The notes beneath the pieces were generated by a model. The model did no database searches, was not told the DNA's origin, and was given only the letters and a program-made list of their open reading frames with translations. Source: Hyphomonas johnsonii MHS-2 (GTDB lineage: Bacteria; Pseudomonadota; Alphaproteobacteria; Caulobacterales; Hyphomonadaceae). From it: 64,000 nt of DNA. Position 1 is the stretch's first letter; every line of letters begins with the position of its first letter. Location of the stretch: positions 1 through 64,000 of the forward strand of contig NZ_ARYK01000001.1 in assembly GCF_000685275.1 (NCBI RefSeq), read 5' to 3'. A program made the translations under genes and the position numbers. Shown here piece by piece: positions 54,916 to 62,568 of this stretch.

Positions 54916-57141
54916 TCAGGCCGCATGGTGGCGGATCCGGCGGAAGACCAGTTTCAGCATGAAGGCCATGAGGACGAGGATGATGCCGGCGAGCAGTTTC
55001 AGGTCGGAAAAGGTGCCGGTATTGGGCAGGGGTACGCCGCGTTCCACCTGCATCGGGGCGTTGGCCCCCTGCGGATCCGGCTTGCGGACGGCGAGGGCGT
55101 CCACGGGGATCAGCGGCATGTCCGAGCGCAGGCCGTCATGGCCGAAGACCTTGCCGAAATCCCAGCCGGCGGGAAGGTTCAGCGGCACCTGCGCGCTGTC
55201 CAGGTCGGCGCCGTCCGGGCGGCTGGGCGTCACGTCCACCGCGACGAGGCTGGTCAGGCGCGAGACAAGATGATGGGCGAGCGCGGTGCCGAGAATCTGG
55301 TCGTCGATGATGTCGGGCAGCGTGTCGGCGCGGGCGCGATCCAGTTCCAGCGAGGCGATCTTCTTGCGGGCCCAGAGTTTCGAGATGCCGGCGCGGTCGG
55401 CGGCCTGCTTGAGGGGGAGGCCGACTTTCCACGGCTGGTCGCCATTGATGCCGGAGACCCAGACGAGGCCGTCCCTGGTCGCCGCATGCGCGGCGATGAC
55501 GAGGGTTTCGCCGGAATAGACATCCGGCAGGGGCGACGGCCAGGCCTCGACGGCGGTGCCGTCCGGCCATGTCGCGGCAAGGTTGGTGATCGCCGGGCTT
55601 TCGAGCCGGGTGAACAGGGCGCCCATGCGGGTGGCGACTTCGCCGATATCGCCAATGTAGGTGTAGCTGCCCTGGCCGAGTTCGGCGGCGCGGGACATGA
55701 AGAAGCTGTTCGGGGCCGAACCGATGCCGACAGTGAAGATGCGGGCATCCTTGCGGTACTGGCTGATGGTTTCGAACAGCTGCTGCTCGTTGCCGATGGC
55801 GCCGTCGGTGAGGAAGACGACCTGGCGCAGGCGCCCGCCGGCATTGCGGTGGTCGGCGAGGGCTTCGCGCAGGGCGGGCAGCATTTCCGTGCCGCCGGTG
55901 GCCTCGAGATTGCTGACCCAGCGCGTGGCGCGGGCGAGATTTGCCTGCGTGGCATCACGGGGATGGTCGAACAGGGCGGTGGTGACGGAATTGAATTCGA
56001 TCACGTTGAACCGGTCCTCCGGCTTGAGGCGCGCGATGGCCAGCGCGAGGCTCTGGCGGGCCTGGCGGATCGACTCGCCGCCCATCGAGCCGGACGTGTC
56101 GATGATGAAGGTGATCTCGCGCGGTGGCGGCGGCGCAGATTGCGCGGCGACCGGTGGGGTGACCATCAGGAGGTAATAGGGCTCGCCGTCGACGGTTTCG
56201 GTGAACAGGGCGGCGCTGGGCGCCTTCGAGGCCTTGGGTGTCCAGGTCAGTTCGAAGTCGCGATTGGCCGGCACGCTGCCGGCCGACAGCGTCAGCGTGG
56301 CGGCGCTGGCACCGGACCAGTCAGTGTCCATCGCGTGATAGGTCGACTCGAGCTTTCCGACCGGGAAACCGGCATCGAGCGAGACGTTCAGCGTAAGCGG
56401 GTTGGTGTCGCCGGTTTGCGGGTTGAGAACCGGCGGTGCGATACGCTCGCGGTCCGGCACGGGGTCGACCACGGCCCAGCCCTCGTCGCCGAGGGAGGCG
56501 GTGAGCACCTGCGGTTCCGGCATGTAGCGCGGGGCAACCACCATGGGGAAGCGCAGCGAGAACGTGTCGTCGGCGAGGTGGACGGTTTCCTGGTATTCGA
56601 TCTGGACAATGATGGTTTCGCCGGGGCCGATATTGGCGACGGAATTGGTGAAAAGATTGGGACGTTCCTGTTCGAGCAGGGCGGTCTTCCTGCCCTCCGC
56701 CTTGGCCTGTTCGTAGATGGCTTTCGCCTTCTGGCGTTCCTCGATCATGCCTTCGATGAAGCGGTCACCGATCTGCATGCGGAGCGTGTCGACGGCGCTT
56801 TCATCCGGCAGGGGGAAGACATAGACGCCTTCGACCCAGCCATCGGTGGTGTTCTCGAAGCGCTGGGTGACGCGGGTGCGGGCGATCGGGCCTGAAATGT
56901 CGATCTGCACATCGGTCAGCAGGGCCGGGGCCTGGACGTACTTGCCGGGCGTGGAGGATTTCAGCAGCAGCGTGCCGGAGGTGGCGTCATTCGGCGTGAC
57001 GAGGCGGGGTTCCTGGTCGGCCCAGGCCGCCCCGGCCGCGAAAGCCGCCGCCGTCAGGAGGGCACCAATCCACTGACCCGATCGGGACAACAAAGGGCTC
57101 CGGTCTGTGATCCTGGCGCGTATCCTGATGGCGGCGAGCAT
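54916..57141 (-). CDS. Sortase target protein, VIT and VWA domains with LPNTG signal
   Basis: 741 residues. A signal peptide (about 25-42), a VIT domain (about 60-185), a VWA domain with metal-site motif DTSGSMGG (348-355), and at the C-terminus a sorting signal: LPNTGT (about 705), a hydrophobic helix (LLAGIILVLMAFMLKLVF) and a basic tail (RRIRHHAA). This is the marine proteobacterial sortase target architecture. The sortase probably anchors it at the cell surface or in the membrane. AAGGAAAGGAAAC precedes the ATG. VIT/VWA proteins usually bind other proteins. Confidence 0.92.
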   Translation of the reverse strand: MLAAIRIRARITDRSPLLSRSGQWIGALLTAAAFAAGAAWADQEPRLVTPNDATSGTLLLKSSTPGKYVQAPALLTDVQIDISGPIARTRVTQRFENTTDGWVEGVYVFPLPDESAVDTLRMQIGDRFIEGMIEERQKAKAIYEQAKAEGRKTALLEQERPNLFTNSVANIGPGETIIVQIEYQETVHLADDTFSLRFPMVVAPRYMPEPQVLTASLGDEGWAVVDPVPDRERIAPPVLNPQTGDTNPLTLNVSLDAGFPVGKLESTYHAMDTDWSGASAATLTLSAGSVPANRDFELTWTPKASKAPSAALFTETVDGEPYYLLMVTPPVAAQSAPPPPREITFIIDTSGSMGGESIRQARQSLALAIARLKPEDRFNVIEFNSVTTALFDHPRDATQANLARATRWVSNLEATGGTEMLPALREALADHRNAGGRLRQVVFLTDGAIGNEQQLFETISQYRKDARIFTVGIGSAPNSFFMSRAAELGQGSYTYIGDIGEVATRMGALFTRLESPAITNLAATWPDGTAVEAWPSPLPDVYSGETLVIAAHAATRDGLVWVSGINGDQPWKVGLPLKQAADRAGISKLWARKKIASLELDRARADTLPDIIDDQILGTALAHHLVSRLTSLVAVDVTPSRPDGADLDSAQVPLNLPAGWDFGKVFGHDGLRSDMPLIPVDALAVRKPDPQGANAPMQVERGVPLPNTGTFSDLKLLAGIILVLMAFMLKLVFRRIRHHAA

Positions 57142-57355
57142 GGTCGTTTCCTTTCCTTGCGCATGTGCAATGACTGCAGGCTGCGCCCCGAATGCGGCGG
57201 GAAATGTCAGGCATTCGGGCAGGGGCGGGATATGTTCAGGGCGGTTTGGTGCGGGGATTGGGGCGAGGGTGTGCCGAAGGCTGACGAAATGGGGCGGAAC
57301 GGGGGATAGCCCTGTTCCTGTCCGACCGTGGTGCCTGCGGCTGTATAGTCGGCGC

Positions 57356-57964
57356 ATGATTACATCAGGCAAACGGCGGCAGGTGAGTGAGCGGGAGGGG
57401 CGGGAGATGCGCCTGTTCTGGTTGCTTGGGCATACGGGCAAGGCGATTGCGCAGCGGATGGGGCGGGACCGGAAAACGGTGTGCGCGACGATCCGCGAGC
57501 GCGGGCTGGATGCGCCGGAAGGGCCGTTCGAGATGGCGTGGCTGGTGATGAAGCGGGAACTGGATGCGATGGCAGAGGCGCTGGCCGGGGGTGGCGAGGT
57601 GGACACGGCGAAGATGCTGAGGCTGGCCGCCGAGCTGCGCCATACCGAGGCGGCGATGCGGGCAGCGGCGCGGGACGTGCTGGAGGATGAGGCAGATGCG
57701 GGGGAAGCGGATGACGCGCAGGGAATCTGGGAGCGTCTCGAAGCAGTGGAACAGCAACGCCGCCTGGACGCCGCAGGATTACCGGCTGAGGGAGCGGGCG
57801 ATTCAGCAGGGTTTGAACAGTCTGACGCAGGAGATGCAGGATTACCTGAAACGAAATCCGTTTATCTTCGAAGCCCGCGATACGCAGGTTCCACCGCGGG
57901 GCCCCTGGCGGACATGGCTGTTCATGGGCGGGCGCGGCGCCGGCAAGACGCGGGCGGGGGCTGA
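57356..57964 (+). CDS. Putative small terminase subunit (HTH protein)
   Basis: About 200 residues as an open frame; the functional part is probably the first 150. A helix-turn-helix is visible in HTGKAIAQRMGRDRKTVCATIRERGL (residues 20-50), followed by helices and an acidic end. It lies directly before and overlaps the large terminase gene, the position of a small subunit (gene g1 in gene transfer agents). The final 70 codons overlap the terminase frame and lose coding bias. I cannot prove the function from sequence. Confidence 0.55.
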   Translation: MITSGKRRQVSEREGREMRLFWLLGHTGKAIAQRMGRDRKTVCATIRERGLDAPEGPFEMAWLVMKRELDAMAEALAGGGEVDTAKMLRLAAELRHTEAAMRAAARDVLEDEADAGEADDAQGIWERLEAVEQQRRLDAAGLPAEGAGDSAGFEQSDAGDAGLPETKSVYLRSPRYAGSTAGPLADMAVHGRARRRQDAGGG

Positions 57965-59063
57965 ATGGGTGCGCATGGCGGTGCGGGCCGGGTGCCGCCG
58001 CGTGGCGCTGGTCGGGCCGGCGCTCTCGGACGTGCGCGAGGTGATGATCGAGGGGCCGAGCGGATTGCGGCACCTGAAGGGCGCAGGCGGCACGCCAGTG
58101 TATGAAGTGTCGCGGCGGCGGCTGGTATGGCCGAACGGGGCGGAGGCGTTCGTCTTCTCGGCGGAAGACCCGGACAGTTTGCGCGGGCCGCAATTCGACG
58201 CGGCCTGGTGCGACGAGGTGGGGGCCTGGGCGAAGGGGGATGCGGTGTGGGACACGCTCCAGATGGGGCTTCGGCTGGGGCCGGGGCCGCGCTGTGTGGC
58301 GACGACCACGCCGCGCCCGGTGGACCTGGTGAAGCGGCTGGTGGGCGCGCCGGACAGCCGGGTGACGCGCAGCGCGACGCGGGAGAATGCGGTGAACCTG
58401 TCACCCGGATTCGTGGCGGCAATGGAGGCGGCCTATGCCGGCTCGTCACTGGCACGGCAGGAGTTGATGGGCGACCTTCTGGAAGACCCGAAGGGCGCGC
58501 TCTTTGTAAGGAGCATGCTGGACAGGAACCGCGTGTTCGCCGCGCCGGGGATGGCGGACATTGTCGTGGCCGTGGACCCGCCGGCGACGAGCGGGCCGCG
58601 GGCCGATGCCTGCGGGATCGTGGCGGCGGGCGTGGCCGAGGCGGCAGGCTTCGGGCGGCGTTGTTTCGTGCTGGGCGATGCCTCGGCGCCGGGGCTGCGG
58701 CCAGCCGACTGGGCGGGCCGGGCCGTCTCGCTGGCCGAGGCGGTGGGCGCGTCGATGATCATCGCCGAGGCCAACCAGGGCGGCGAGATGGTGCGCCAGA
58801 CGCTGGTGAGTTCGGGCTGCCGGTTGCCAGTGCGGCTGGTGCATGCGCGGTTGGGCAAGCGGGCACGGGCGCTGCCGGTGGCGCTGCTGTATGAGCAGGG
58901 CAAGGTGGCGCATGTCGGGCTGCTGGCGACACTGGAAGACCAGATGTGCCGGTTCGGAGCGGACGGGTTCGCCGGCTCGCCGGACCGGGTGGATGCACTG
59001 GTCTGGGCCGTGTGGGCGCTGATGCTGGAGCGCGGCGAGGGGCCGCGTATCAGGGCGCTCTAG
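57711..59063 (+). CDS. Terminase large subunit, gene-transfer-agent type
   Basis: About 450 residues. Walker A FMGGRGAGKTRAGAEWVR (residues 73-80), Walker B with the catalytic acid FDAAWCDEVG, TTPRP motif, and a nuclease domain with Asp in VVAVDPPATSG and in DRVDALVWAVW. This GGRGAGKTRAGAEW pattern is typical of RcGTA gene g2 and related phage terminases. Such proteins package DNA into heads. Starts at 57687, 57711 and 57834 are possible. No portal, capsid or tail gene follows, so it is an isolated packaging gene pair. Confidence 0.88.
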   Translation: MTRRESGSVSKQWNSNAAWTPQDYRLRERAIQQGLNSLTQEMQDYLKRNPFIFEARDTQVPPRGPWRTWLFMGGRGAGKTRAGAEWVRMAVRAGCRRVALVGPALSDVREVMIEGPSGLRHLKGAGGTPVYEVSRRRLVWPNGAEAFVFSAEDPDSLRGPQFDAAWCDEVGAWAKGDAVWDTLQMGLRLGPGPRCVATTTPRPVDLVKRLVGAPDSRVTRSATRENAVNLSPGFVAAMEAAYAGSSLARQELMGDLLEDPKGALFVRSMLDRNRVFAAPGMADIVVAVDPPATSGPRADACGIVAAGVAEAAGFGRRCFVLGDASAPGLRPADWAGRAVSLAEAVGASMIIAEANQGGEMVRQTLVSSGCRLPVRLVHARLGKRARALPVALLYEQGKVAHVGLLATLEDQMCRFGADGFAGSPDRVDALVWAVWALMLERGEGPRIRAL

Positions 59064-59521
59064 TTGCCGGCGCGGAAGGACTTGCGGCCGAAATAGGCGT
59101 TCTTCGGCGCATCGTCCGTGCCCGTCGGTTCAGTACCTGCGGCGGGGGTTTCGGCTTCGGCTTCGACCGCGGTTGCCTGCGGGGCGGTGGTCTCGCCGGC
59201 CATGACCTTGCGGATGTGCGCGGCAGCGGCGCCGGCAGTGGAGACTTCATAATCGTCGACCGCCTTGTCGAGGCGGCGGGCGAGCAGGCGAGCCTGGTGG
59301 GCCGTCAGTTTCTTCAGTTCGGTTTCGAAGATCTCGTGACCGACCGCCTCGCGCAGGGCGATCATGTCTTCGGTGGCCTGGCCGGCCGAATTCATGAGCT
59401 TGCGGACAAGCAGGCCGGCGGCATTGGCGAAGTCGCGGTCGGCAAGCCGGCTGAAACGGTCGCGATTTTCCAGCAGGGCCGCGAGCGCGGCGGCGCCGGC
59501 GGTCGGCGGTGTCAGGCTCAT
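59060..59521 (-). CDS. Small helical partner of ParA
   Basis: 153 residues, mostly helical (about residues 15-110: ALLENRDRFSRLADRDFANAAGLLVRKLMNSAGQATEDMIALREAVGHEIFETELKKLTAHQ), then an Ala/Pro/Glu-rich disordered tail ending in NAYFGRKSFRAGN. It shows no ParB HTH. The ATG overlaps the parA stop by 4 bp (ATGA at 59518-59521), so it is coupled to ParA. Its stop codon shares CTAG with the convergent terminase stop. It could be an adaptor that couples ParA to a cargo. Confidence 0.65.
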   Translation of the reverse strand: MSLTPPTAGAAALAALLENRDRFSRLADRDFANAAGLLVRKLMNSAGQATEDMIALREAVGHEIFETELKKLTAHQARLLARRLDKAVDDYEVSTAGAAAAHIRKVMAGETTAPQATAVEAEAETPAAGTEPTGTDDAPKNAYFGRKSFRAGN

Positions 59522-60402
59522 TTGAGGCGCTCCTGGACTTCGTTGAGCAGCTTCTGGATGGTGGACAGGGCATCGCCCGGCCATTTGGCCGCCAGGGTCG
59601 GATCGGGGCCGAGCTCGATCGGGTTGGTGGCAAAGCCGGTCTTGAGGGGGATGACCGTGTCGAACATCTCGAATTCGGCGTCCTCTGACTTGGCCGCTTC
59701 GCGCATGGCCTGAAGGACGACCTGCTGGTGCGGCGTGTTGTCGAACCGCGTCGCCAGCACGACCGGCAGGCTTTCGATGTCCCGGTCGCGCAGATTCGCC
59801 ATGATGTCGCCAGTGAAGAGGTCGAGACCGAGCGTGGACATGAAATCCGGGATCGTGGGCACGATGATGAGGTGGCTGGCGGCGAGGACGCTTTCGGTCA
59901 TCACCGAGATGCCGGGCGGGCAGTCGCAGATGATGACGTCATAATCGGCCTTGAGCAGGTTGAAATCGTCGCGCAGGCGGCGGCCGACCTGGCCCTGCAG
60001 GGCCTCCATCGAGTATTTCTTGGCGGTGAGTTCGTAGATCAGCTCGCGCTCGGTCTTGCGCAGGCGCGGGCTGGACGGGATGAGGTCGAGCGGCAGCGGC
60101 TTGCCGTCATGGCTGACATCGCTGGCATTGGTGACGACGAAGTCGGACAGGCGCTTCTGCTCATTGGCGAAGAAGTTTTCCAGCAGCCAGTCGGAAATCG
60201 TGGCGTAGTCATTGATGGCCTGGAACAGGTGTTCGTCGCCCTCGTGGCCGTAGACCAGCAGCGAGGCGTTGGCCTGCGTGTCGAGATCGACGACCAGCGT
60301 GCGGCGACCAGAGGCGGCGAAGGCCTCGGCCAGGCTGACGCAGGTCGTGGTCTTTCCGACGCCGCCTTTGGAATTGGCGATCGAGATGACGCGTGCCGAC
60401 AT
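59518..60402 (-). CDS. ParA family ATPase
   Basis: 294 residues. The deviant Walker A motif KGGVGKTTT is near residues 12-20 (signature Lys12 and Lys17), DLDTQANASLLVYG follows and the Walker B region is IICDCPPGISVMTESVL. This is a ParA/Soj-type ATPase that would form dynamic nucleoid-bound gradients. No ParB or parS is recognised next to it, and MipZ or chromosomal ParA would not lie here. The start (MSARVISIANSKGG) has a GAGGAGC site. Confidence 0.92.
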   Translation of the reverse strand: MSARVISIANSKGGVGKTTTCVSLAEAFAASGRRTLVVDLDTQANASLLVYGHEGDEHLFQAINDYATISDWLLENFFANEQKRLSDFVVTNASDVSHDGKPLPLDLIPSSPRLRKTERELIYELTAKKYSMEALQGQVGRRLRDDFNLLKADYDVIICDCPPGISVMTESVLAASHLIIVPTIPDFMSTLGLDLFTGDIMANLRDRDIESLPVVLATRFDNTPHQQVVLQAMREAAKSEDAEFEMFDTVIPLKTGFATNPIELGPDPTLAAKWPGDALSTIQKLLNEVQERLK

Positions 60403-60562
60403 TCTGCTAGCTCCTCTGCCCCGGACTGAAGCGCGGGACAAAGCAGAATTCAATGGGAATGGCTATCGCCGCAAGGTCACAAATTGCAGCACCCGCAATA
60501 TGATTTCCCTCAGGTTTCCAACGTAGTGCCCGAGGATTCCTTGGAAAAATCCTTTTCGGTCC

Positions 60563-60617
60563 GACCGGCATCCCGGTCGCGGTAAATTCTCCCGGTCGAA
60601 ACAAGTTCAACCGGGAG
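60563..60617. promoter_or_regulatory. Inverted and direct repeats between parA and the small gene
   Basis: GACCGG-CATC-CCGGTC (60563-60578) and CTCCCGGT/ACCGGGAG arms (60589-60596 and 60610-60617). TCCCGGTCG also occurs as a direct repeat at 60571-60579 and 60590-60598, 19 bp apart. Such clustered sites suit a regulator or a partition-type (centromere-like) site. Function is inferred only from position and symmetry. Confidence 0.5.
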
Positions 60618-60628
60618 CGAGACAAGGC

Positions 60629-60990
60629 ATGAATTGGACCTGGCCGTTTGCACGTCAAGGTGGTGAGTCGAAGGCGGCAATGCCGGGGGCGAGACACTGG
60701 CCTATGAGGACATTGGCGGCCGACCGTGGCCGGTCGCGCATGTGCGCCTGCGCGCCAGCGTGCTGGACTGGGTGCGCCGGGGCGCTGACGTGGCAGAGAG
60801 CTGGGCCTTCCCGGAGGCCGGGAATTCCGGGCGCTTTGCGGTTGAGGTCGACACCGGAAGCGGCTTTGGCGGGCGGTTTGATGTCGGCAGCCCGGTTGCC
60901 GAACTGGCGGAGGGCGTGCTGGCCGCACGGGTGGCCGAGATCGGACCGGACGGGCGGATCGGCCCGTGGGCGGTGATCACGAGCGGGTAG
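60629..60990 (+). pseudogene. Small gene with an apparent frameshift
   Basis: Frame 2 from ATG 60629 encodes MNWTWPFARQGGESKAAMPG; coding-like bias then passes to frame 1, which reads GETLAYEDIGGRPWPVAHVRLRASV... up to the TAG-class stop at 60990. Adding one G to the GGGGG run at 60685-60689 joins both into one frame of about 120 residues. The end (IGPDGRIGPWAVITSG) resembles the last strand of a fibronectin-type module. Either a real indel, a sequencing error or -1 slippage is possible. Confidence 0.4.
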
Positions 60991-61695: not shown

Positions 61696-62568
61696 TTGGC
61701 CCTTGATCCCTACAGCGTGCTCGGCGTTTCCCGCACCGCGAGCGATGCCGACATCAAGAAAGCCTATCGCAACAAGGCGAAAGCCCTGCACCCGGACCTG
61801 CATCCGGATGACGAAAAGAAGATGGAAGAGTTCAAGCGGGTCTCCCAGGCCTGGGACATCCTTGGTGACAACGACAAGAAGGCCAAGTTCGACCGCGGCG
61901 AAATCGACGGCGACGGCAACCCGGCCGGGTTTGCCGGCAGCTATCCCGGTGGTGGCGCGGGCCCGGGCGGCACCCATCGCTGGGAAACGCGCGGCGGCGC
62001 CCCGTTCGGGGCACAGGGCGATCCGTTCGAGGATATCCTGGGCGGCATGTTCGGCGGGCGCCGGCGCAGCCCCGGCCCGCAAAAGGGCCGTGATATCCGT
62101 TATCGTGTGGAAGTTTCGTTCGAGGACGCCGTGAATGGCGCCCGGCGGCGCATGACCATGGCCGACGGAACCGCACTGGACGTCAATATCCCGGCCGGGA
62201 TCGATACCGGCCAGACCCTGCGCCTGAAAAGCCAGGGCCAGCCTTCACCCAATGGCGGGGCACCGGGCGATGCCCTGCTCGAAGTCGAGGTACGCAAGAG
62301 CACTGTCTGGCAACGCGACGGGCGCGATTTGCACATGGATGTGCCGATCGGCCTGAAGACGGCGGTCCTTGGCGGCAGCGTGGAAGTGAAAACACCATCC
62401 GGCCAGCTGACCCTGAAAGTGCCGGCGGGCTCGAATACCGGATCCCAGCTGCGCCTGCGCGGCAAGGGTGTGCAGGGCGCCAATCCCGGCAATCTCTATG
62501 CCCACCTCAAGATCGTGCTGGACGACCCGGCCGATGCCGGGTTGAAGCGATGGGCCGAAGGGCGTTAG
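61696..62568 (+). CDS. DnaJ-class co-chaperone, CbpA-like
   Basis: 290 residues. J domain with HPD (KALHPDLHPDD) and helix YSVLGVSRTASDADIKKAYR, a Gly-rich linker (SYPGGGAGPGGTHRW), and the C-terminal DnaJ domains (VSFEDAVNGARRRMTMADGTALDVNIPAGIDTGQTLRLKSQG and the second GSNTGSQLRLRGKGVQG). It has no zinc-finger domain, so it is of the CbpA type rather than DnaJ. The start codon is TTG with AGAGGA 9 bp upstream. Confidence 0.9.
   Translation: MALDPYSVLGVSRTASDADIKKAYRNKAKALHPDLHPDDEKKMEEFKRVSQAWDILGDNDKKAKFDRGEIDGDGNPAGFAGSYPGGGAGPGGTHRWETRGGAPFGAQGDPFEDILGGMFGGRRRSPGPQKGRDIRYRVEVSFEDAVNGARRRMTMADGTALDVNIPAGIDTGQTLRLKSQGQPSPNGGAPGDALLEVEVRKSTVWQRDGRDLHMDVPIGLKTAVLGGSVEVKTPSGQLTLKVPAGSNTGSQLRLRGKGVQGANPGNLYAHLKIVLDDPADAGLKRWAEGR

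Follow-up and report, generated by a model that had tools for sequence, protein, structure and literature searches.

A ParA-type ATPase and small partner protein resident in the gene transfer agent locus of Hyphomonas, and candidate prophage copies of the partner's C-terminal tail

Background

What does a ParA-type ATPase gene, joined to the gene of a small protein that is not ParB, do beside the packaging genes of a phage-like locus? The question is raised by the window, by which is meant the whole 64,000 nucleotide stretch of Hyphomonas johnsonii MHS-2 analysed here (contig NZ_ARYK01000001.1, positions 1 to 64,000), where such a pair of genes lies next to a large terminase gene. In relatives the pair is within a gene transfer agent (GTA) cluster, and it is also present in genomes in which no capsid gene is found. 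It is rather probable that the two genes encode a ParA-type system for positioning a host cargo, in which a C-terminal peptide of the partner, mimicked by phages, makes the contact with ParA.

Results and Discussion

The ParA gene and its partner

The ATPase contains the sequence KGGVGKTT, in which the signature lysine is K12, and K12-GGVGK is invariant across 31 aligned ParA sequences. It matches Pfam PF13614 (AAA_31) with 116.2 bits, the cut-off being 27, and the PHROGs family phrog_164 (ParA-like) at E 5.4e-49, while the partition models of NCBIfam reach it only below their cut-offs. An earlier note on the window had described a full ParA ATPase with a deviant Walker A sequence, overlapping by ATGA the gene of a 153-residue helical protein that has no ParB domain. 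This description holds throughout, for the partner through its coordinates, its searches against Pfam, NCBIfam and PHROGs, and its AlphaFold2 model. That the ParA and the partner are two genuine genes is confirmed.

Searches of the partner against Pfam, NCBIfam, PHROGs and PADLOC gave sub-threshold matches only. No ParB or helix-turn-helix (HTH) family was found for it in Pfam, NCBIfam or PHROGs, no receptor domain in Pfam, and no phasin model in NCBIfam or among the Pfam matches up to E = 1; the ParB-like or phasin homology that the earlier note had raised as another explanation is therefore absent from Pfam and NCBIfam. The domain DIMCO_N (PF16844) was matched by partners of the kind found in the window (type I) at E 0.031, 0.018, and 0.00048, all below its 36.7-bit cut-off, and was taken to be a helical look-alike. 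As the earlier note had stated, the pair is not the chromosomal parAB either: the single ParB_N match in the whole genome is on another contig (C5), where it adjoins the genome's own chromosomal-type parA, and there is none in the partner, which excludes that identity.

The nearest relatives fall in Hyphomonas, as judged by named records, some of which bear misleading MAG names. Three records called Acidobacteria or Sulfopaludibacter (L077, L081, L084; L, G, g and f numbers are our handles for loci, genomes, genera and families) have contigs that carry the Hyphomonas pair, and their names look wrong. The type I ParA is present in 41/42 genomes of the genus of the window, in 10/29 of genus g15, and in 2/3 of genus g21. 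The partner occurs in the same 53 of the 105 genomes of the family, and the two genes adjoin each other in all 47 type I loci whose gene order was compared. A profile of the partner matched 48/398 genomes of the order, in 3/59 genera, and 2/385 genomes of the class, both of them in the genus of the window.

Retention of the pair in the absence of the GTA

The locus around the pair in relatives is, from its gene families, a GTA cluster of the RcGTA type. Locus L143 has the HK97 portal, protease, capsid, connector, TP901-1 tail, TIGR02217, TIGR02218, and TIGR02219 families, and L223 has GTA_TIM and Rcc01698_C; the gene names g2, g3, and g15 are ones that we take over from RcGTA. The portal gene directly adjoins parA, on the opposite strand, in 22/22 loci that bear a capsid gene; among these, L072 and L151 belong to a single genome. 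A terminase was called in 17 of the 22 loci, always on the side of the partner and no more than seven called genes away, and is directly adjacent in 10; it is uncalled in five, one of which is at a contig end. The partner is also present in 17 IMG/VR loci, short stretches of which some are near-identical, where the GTA portal is on one side in 17/17 and the terminase on the other in 9. These 17 'viral' loci (L185-L201) resemble Hyphomonas-type GTA clusters that have been filed as viruses.

The constant position beside the portal would suit the alternative that the pair is a GTA accessory, which would localize packaging or the assembly of capsids to the nucleoid or a pole, or would, from its antisense position between terminase and portal, control expression of the cluster. 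The gtaQS genes of Caulobacter crescentus likewise lie between terminase and portal, according to the available part of PMC11150451. Among the 398 genomes of the order, matches to the type I partner profile are confined to three genera. However, a component of an RcGTA-type cluster would be expected in the same place in other lineages, and in one set of pair-less relatives 10/12 loci have terminase then portal without the pair, separated by 26–174 bp in eight and in two by 1.0–1.3 kb containing neither ParA nor partner (in the remaining two loci the terminase is beyond the stretch). In a second pair-less set terminase and portal are adjacent in 4/6 loci, with a gap of 48–197 bp, one of the others having no terminase in the stretch and one being unclear. 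The GTA locus would be just the site of insertion of the cassette, in a shared ancestor.

Such a component would also be expected to be lost together with the GTA, yet 21 of the 41 pair-bearing genomes of the genus have no capsid match. The window is itself such a case. The start of the portal gene runs into the end of the g15 homologue (60629-60990), with the intact pair beside this scar; comparison with genome G036 indicates a GTA deletion of about 11 kb, and there is no capsid match anywhere in the genome of the window. A capsid match is present in 20/42 genomes of the genus (in G029 as an 84-residue piece) and absent from 22; the pair is retained in 21 of these, and G031 lacks both capsid and pair. 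In genus g15 the capsid is found in 5/10 genomes with the pair, including G085 where it has an internal stop, and in 15/19 without it. In three genomes portal, terminase or g6 fragments adjoin intact pairs (L070, L181, and L090/L182, the last two being one genome).

On the tree of type I parA (45 rows, with one genome present twice as L126/L127) there are at least 14 changes of capsid state, of which well-supported branches force 10. This count does not separate gain from loss; it is the remnants of GTA genes that argue for losses. In 12 comparisons where both genomes are without a capsid match, the ratio of non-synonymous to synonymous substitution rates (dN/dS) is 0.013–0.135 for parA, and for the partner 0.062–0.369 in 10 of the 12, the others giving no value. 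The pair is under purifying selection in genomes without a capsid match.

That the pair outlives the GTA means that the GTA does not explain the pair, and its retention under selection in the absence of the capsid indicates that it most likely has a host function independent of the GTA. The best reading is that the pair resides in the GTA locus without being a component of the GTA, and a role as GTA accessory is accordingly quite unlikely. The earlier note had offered an element-derived system as an option, given the neighbouring packaging genes. This stands in so far as the neighbour is a GTA terminase and the pair is inside the cluster in relatives, and fails in that the pair survives without the GTA. 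An antisense host gene in a GTA locus has a precedent in CCNA_02873 of C. crescentus, a putative bleomycin-resistance gene (PMC9632790, available part).

The C-terminal tail of the partner

The AlphaFold2 model of the partner has a mean predicted local distance difference test score (pLDDT) of 75.9. Its helices span residues 9–107, ten-residue blocks over 11–110 having pLDDT 85–94, whereas residues 113–138 are disordered and the C-terminal tail is of low confidence. Across 45 aligned partners the linker between head and tail is 21–97 residues long with a net charge of -20 to 0. The tail motif Y[FLI]GR[KR][SA]FR is present in 45/45 of these, with a tail net charge of +3 to +6, while the first eight residues of the protein are uncharged and poorly conserved. 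Fold searches found nothing at E <0.001, either in the PDB, with both partner models, or in BFVD, with that of type I.

Since the conserved, basic and disordered segment is the C-terminus, and the N-terminus is poorly conserved and uncharged, it is the tail that would be expected to dock on ParA. The sequences therefore mark the tail as a candidate ParA-contact peptide.

Free tail peptides in prophage-like stretches

The order-wide partner profile gave one additional match, to the tail alone, in Hyphomonas genome G016 (E 3.4e-4, as counted for a single genome, 398 having been searched). It lies in a 29-residue frame, MMTDQKETEQQEPEQQTNPYFGRKCFRTS (L246:9605-9694, minus strand), which closes a prophage-like stretch containing DUF1353 and a GH108 endolysin, adjoins tRNA-Gly(ccc), and has a ribosome-binding site recognized by eye. 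A second peptide, MKEDQTPTETEEKPTNPYFGRKCFRTGK, came from a pattern scan of viral contigs (L247, minus strand, approximately 1430-1515). It shares its IMG/VR contig with a type I pair, adjoins tRNA-Gly(tcc), and likewise has a ribosome-binding site by eye. Both peptides are 28–29 residues long, are composed of an acidic stretch followed by the partner tail, and are divergent to a small gene. The two prophage-like stretches are related, with 95.6% identity over 363 bp.

In the 12 tail codons shared by the two peptides there are 4 synonymous and 0 non-synonymous differences, while the leaders vary freely, a pattern to be expected if a free tail peptide were under selection. In 2.44 Mb of loci, which contain duplicates, 59 of the 60 distinct contexts of the C-terminal motif resemble partner ends and the remaining one is the G016 peptide. 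No match to the tail peptide was found in phage records; a neighbouring prophage gene has no relatives in viral contigs, and those of the divergent small gene are solely on its own contig. The motif also occurs within an 801-residue frame (L257, NRYFGRKSFR) and at the end of a 139-residue phage frame, after an acidic stretch (L261, KFGRKPFRT), both of which may be due to chance. Four of the further pattern matches (L250, L255, L256/L258, L260) look like chance and were rejected.

The presence of the tail as a free mini-protein points to the part of the partner that may touch ParA. In its full form the proposal is that Hyphomonas prophages carry a stand-alone, 28–29-residue copy of the ParA-contact tail, which would bind or trigger ParA and so collapse or redirect host positioning, a mimicry of a ParA adaptor belonging to a new class of partner with a C-terminal contact tail; this has, in our estimation, somewhat less than an even chance of being correct. 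Most likely the peptide competes with the partner by binding or triggering ParA; it might bind the cargo instead. If the peptides do act on ParA, a micro-protein would be the means by which phages interfere with positioning inside the cell, an effect not known to have been described. A loose literature search, mostly without subscription papers, found no description of a phage peptide that mimics a ParA partner.

Peptides of this kind in two prophage-like stretches could be counter-measures, were the pair the cargo of mobile elements in conflict with phages, as a defence or as the target of a counter-measure, carried by GTA loci and phage satellites. Genome G079 of genus g15 has a second copy of the pair (L127:1902-12078) in an island with an integrase, a Toprim primase, a DUF3987 helicase, a small terminase, and a SIR2-like protein, adjoining genes that read like those of ribosomal proteins L21 and L27, and this island leaves room for a role in phage conflict. 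It is, however, the single such island seen. Defence genes come and go, unlike the pair, which is in 41 of the 42 genomes of the genus and has a single address in the loci compared. PADLOC has no match for the partner and for ParA only partial ATPase regions, the best being PDC-M28B (E 3.3e-10, residues 10–101). A role in phage conflict is therefore unlikely.

Proposed mode of action

As a positioning cassette, the pair would work as follows. ParA-ATP dimers would bind the nucleoid non-specifically, while the head of the partner would bind a host cargo or cluster upon it. The C-terminal tail of the partner would dock on the ParA dimer and stimulate ATP hydrolysis, and the cargo would be moved or spread along the resulting ParA gradient. 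The prophage peptides would then be free docking tails that bind or trigger ParA, uncoupling it from the partner.

With regard to the cargo, polyhydroxyalkanoate (PHA) synthase is present in 100/105 genomes, so that its co-occurrence with the pair is uninformative. In genus g15 at least two PHA synthase copies are found in 9/10 genomes with the pair and in 3/19 without it, although the pair-bearing genomes may be one clade, which would make this at best one contrast.

Several observations weigh against this interpretation. In genome G030 the tail of the partner (L152:7252-7917) is gone through a frame change while ParA is retained; the frame change may be either real or a sequencing error, and this row was excluded from the alignment of 45 partners. 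Contact through the C-terminus departs from precedent, because published ParA partners reportedly use a disordered N-terminus with positive charge to contact the ATPase (PMC10241942, available part). The tail might bind the cargo instead, with the prophage peptides then mimicking that interaction. The G016 match is not decisive alone, given that its E value counts one genome of the 398, and since the two peptides come from related prophage ends they may share one origin. Finally, apart from the second copy in L127, every locus compared has the pair at the GTA address, which leaves room for some GTA role where the GTA persists.

Related cassettes

A second ParA with a small partner (type II; L133-L142, L153-L156, L202-L221) is found in genera g16, g17, g20, and g22, and also in 18 genomes of f3, another family of the order, where ParA adjoins the partner in 17/18 loci, L218 being cut short. 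Type II often adjoins a gene taken for glutathione reductase. A third (type III) is found in L157-L160. In each of the three types the ParA adjoins a small partner with a conserved C-terminus, and the three types of ParA group together (98/93) to the exclusion of 30 outgroup rows that include the genome's own chromosomal ParA, with limited outgroup sampling. The type II and III partners are related (hhalign probability 92.6%). For types I and II the hhalign probability is only 2.6% (E 0.018), so that their sequence similarity is not significant, although the alignment is in register and the predicted helix spacing agrees, which is suggestive of a relationship; for types I and III it is 0.4%. 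Types I and II were not found together in any one genus of the family, the f3 data being a sample. The Hyphomonas genomes G012 and G016 have weak matches in the type II search, at other places (E 3.6e-4 and 5.2e-6).

Sequences upstream of parA and other features of the window

The features of the window are listed in Table 1.

Table 1. Features of the pair and of the surrounding GTA locus in the window
Feature	Position	Strand	Basis or remark
ParA-type ATPase (type I), 294 aa	59518..60402	-	Deviant Walker A, AAA_31, orthologues
Small partner protein, 153 aa	59060..59521	-	Start overlaps parA stop by ATGA
Partner helical head, residues 9-110	59192..59497	-	AlphaFold2 model
Partner acidic disordered linker, residues 111-136	59114..59191	-	Mostly pLDDT <50
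Partner basic C-terminal tail, residues 137-153, DAPKNAYFGRKSFRAGN	59063..59113	-	Candidate ParA-contact peptide
Box approximately 48 bp upstream of parA	60443..60450	-	AATTCTGC in the window
Direct repeat TCCCGGTCG, copy 1	60571..60579	+	Not conserved
Direct repeat TCCCGGTCG, copy 2	60590..60598	+	Not conserved
GTA large terminase (g2 homologue)	57687..59063	+	Frame intact; 86% identical to L069 terminase
Remnant: first ~18 codons of GTA portal gene	60629..60682	+	Comparison with L069/L224
Remnant: last ~96 codons of GTA g15 homologue (GTA_TIM / Rcc01698_C)	60697..60990	+	Family search and comparison with relatives
DnaJ-like gene flanking GTA locus, far side	61696..62568	+	Name from sequence alone; landmark

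The earlier note had drawn attention to inverted and direct repeats upstream of parA. These exist, and the spacing of 19 between the two copies of TCCCGGTCG is as described; as a part of the system they do not stand, not being conserved among the 47 upstream regions compared (that of L088 is just 27 bp long). Two exact copies are found in the window alone (1/47), while L130 has one copy. Five copies are present within the window, where 1.07 would be expected. When the upstream region was simulated with a Markov model, 5% of 2000 runs contained a 9-mer direct repeat within 60 bp and 15% of 1000 runs an 8-base inverted repeat within 60 bp, so the TCCCGGTCG repeat is only mildly unusual. The upstream repeats were rejected as an operator or centromere.

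These sequences bear on the alternative that the pair is an orphan DNA-partition system from a plasmid or phage, made up of ParA and a small centromere-binding protein. Small-adaptor plasmid partition cassettes have a similar operon layout and size, and 271 plasmid records contain a ParA similar at E 1e-15, every one at <60% identity. The partner, however, is matched at E 0.01 by none of 72,556 plasmid records and none of 50,697 phage records, and TCCCGGTCG, the sole candidate site examined, does not give conserved parS-like repeats. Together with the long chromosomal residence of the pair, this makes an orphan partition system very unlikely.

The box upstream of parA reads AAATCTGC or AAATCTGG in most Hyphomonas loci and is present in 35/47 upstream regions, both with and without the GTA. 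It is not found in the ten loci of genera g15 and g21, in L146, or in the 27 bp of L088. It probably belongs to the parA promoter. Upstream of the terminase, the frame 57107-57961 has a weak HTH_23 match (E 0.0016) and is possibly the GTA small terminase.

Comparison with known systems

No description of a ParA gene in a GTA cluster was found in the literature searched, mostly without subscription papers. The word ParA does not occur in the available main text of PMC9632790, nor does 'ParA-like' or 'ParA homolog' in the available text of the paper on segregation in H. neptunium (PMC6650430). Partners of ParA are said to be so diverse that many remain to be identified (PMC10241942, available part). 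A conserved and portable C-terminal tail that is copied by phages would help to find the contact peptide, the cargo, and new families of partner. The locus is also a natural experiment, in which a host system was inserted in a GTA cluster and has survived many losses of the GTA. That a gene lies within a phage-like locus therefore does not prove that its function is phage-like.

As a class, ParA-based cargo positioning, to which the earlier note had likened the pair, remains the best reading, without a specific assignment to McdAB or PpfA, no search aimed at carboxysome or chemotaxis families having been made. The McdA-McdB and PpfA-TlpT systems, which belong to the ParA/MinD (A/D) ATPases that position cargo, likewise have a ParA-type ATPase beside a small partner that is not ParB, and partners of the McdB and TlpT kind have a disordered charged segment, as does the partner described here. 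The present pair differs in having a partner that matches no Pfam or NCBIfam family and in lying inside a GTA cluster. It would differ also in its candidate contact peptide, which is C-terminal here and N-terminal in the known partners (PMC10241942, available part). Chromosomal ParABS has the ParA ATPase family in common with the pair, which, unlike it, has no adjoining ParB and no conserved parS-like site and is on a contig other than that of the genome's own parAB. The terminase, portal, capsid, tail, and g15 genes of the RcGTA and CcGTA clusters surround the pair in relatives; unlike these genes, the pair is antisense, is missing from the GTA clusters examined in pair-less lineages, and persists where the GTA has been lost. 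A further parallel is CCNA_02873 in the GTA locus of C. crescentus, a gene with a host function that is antisense in that locus, as is the pair, although it is another gene in another place (PMC9632790, available part).

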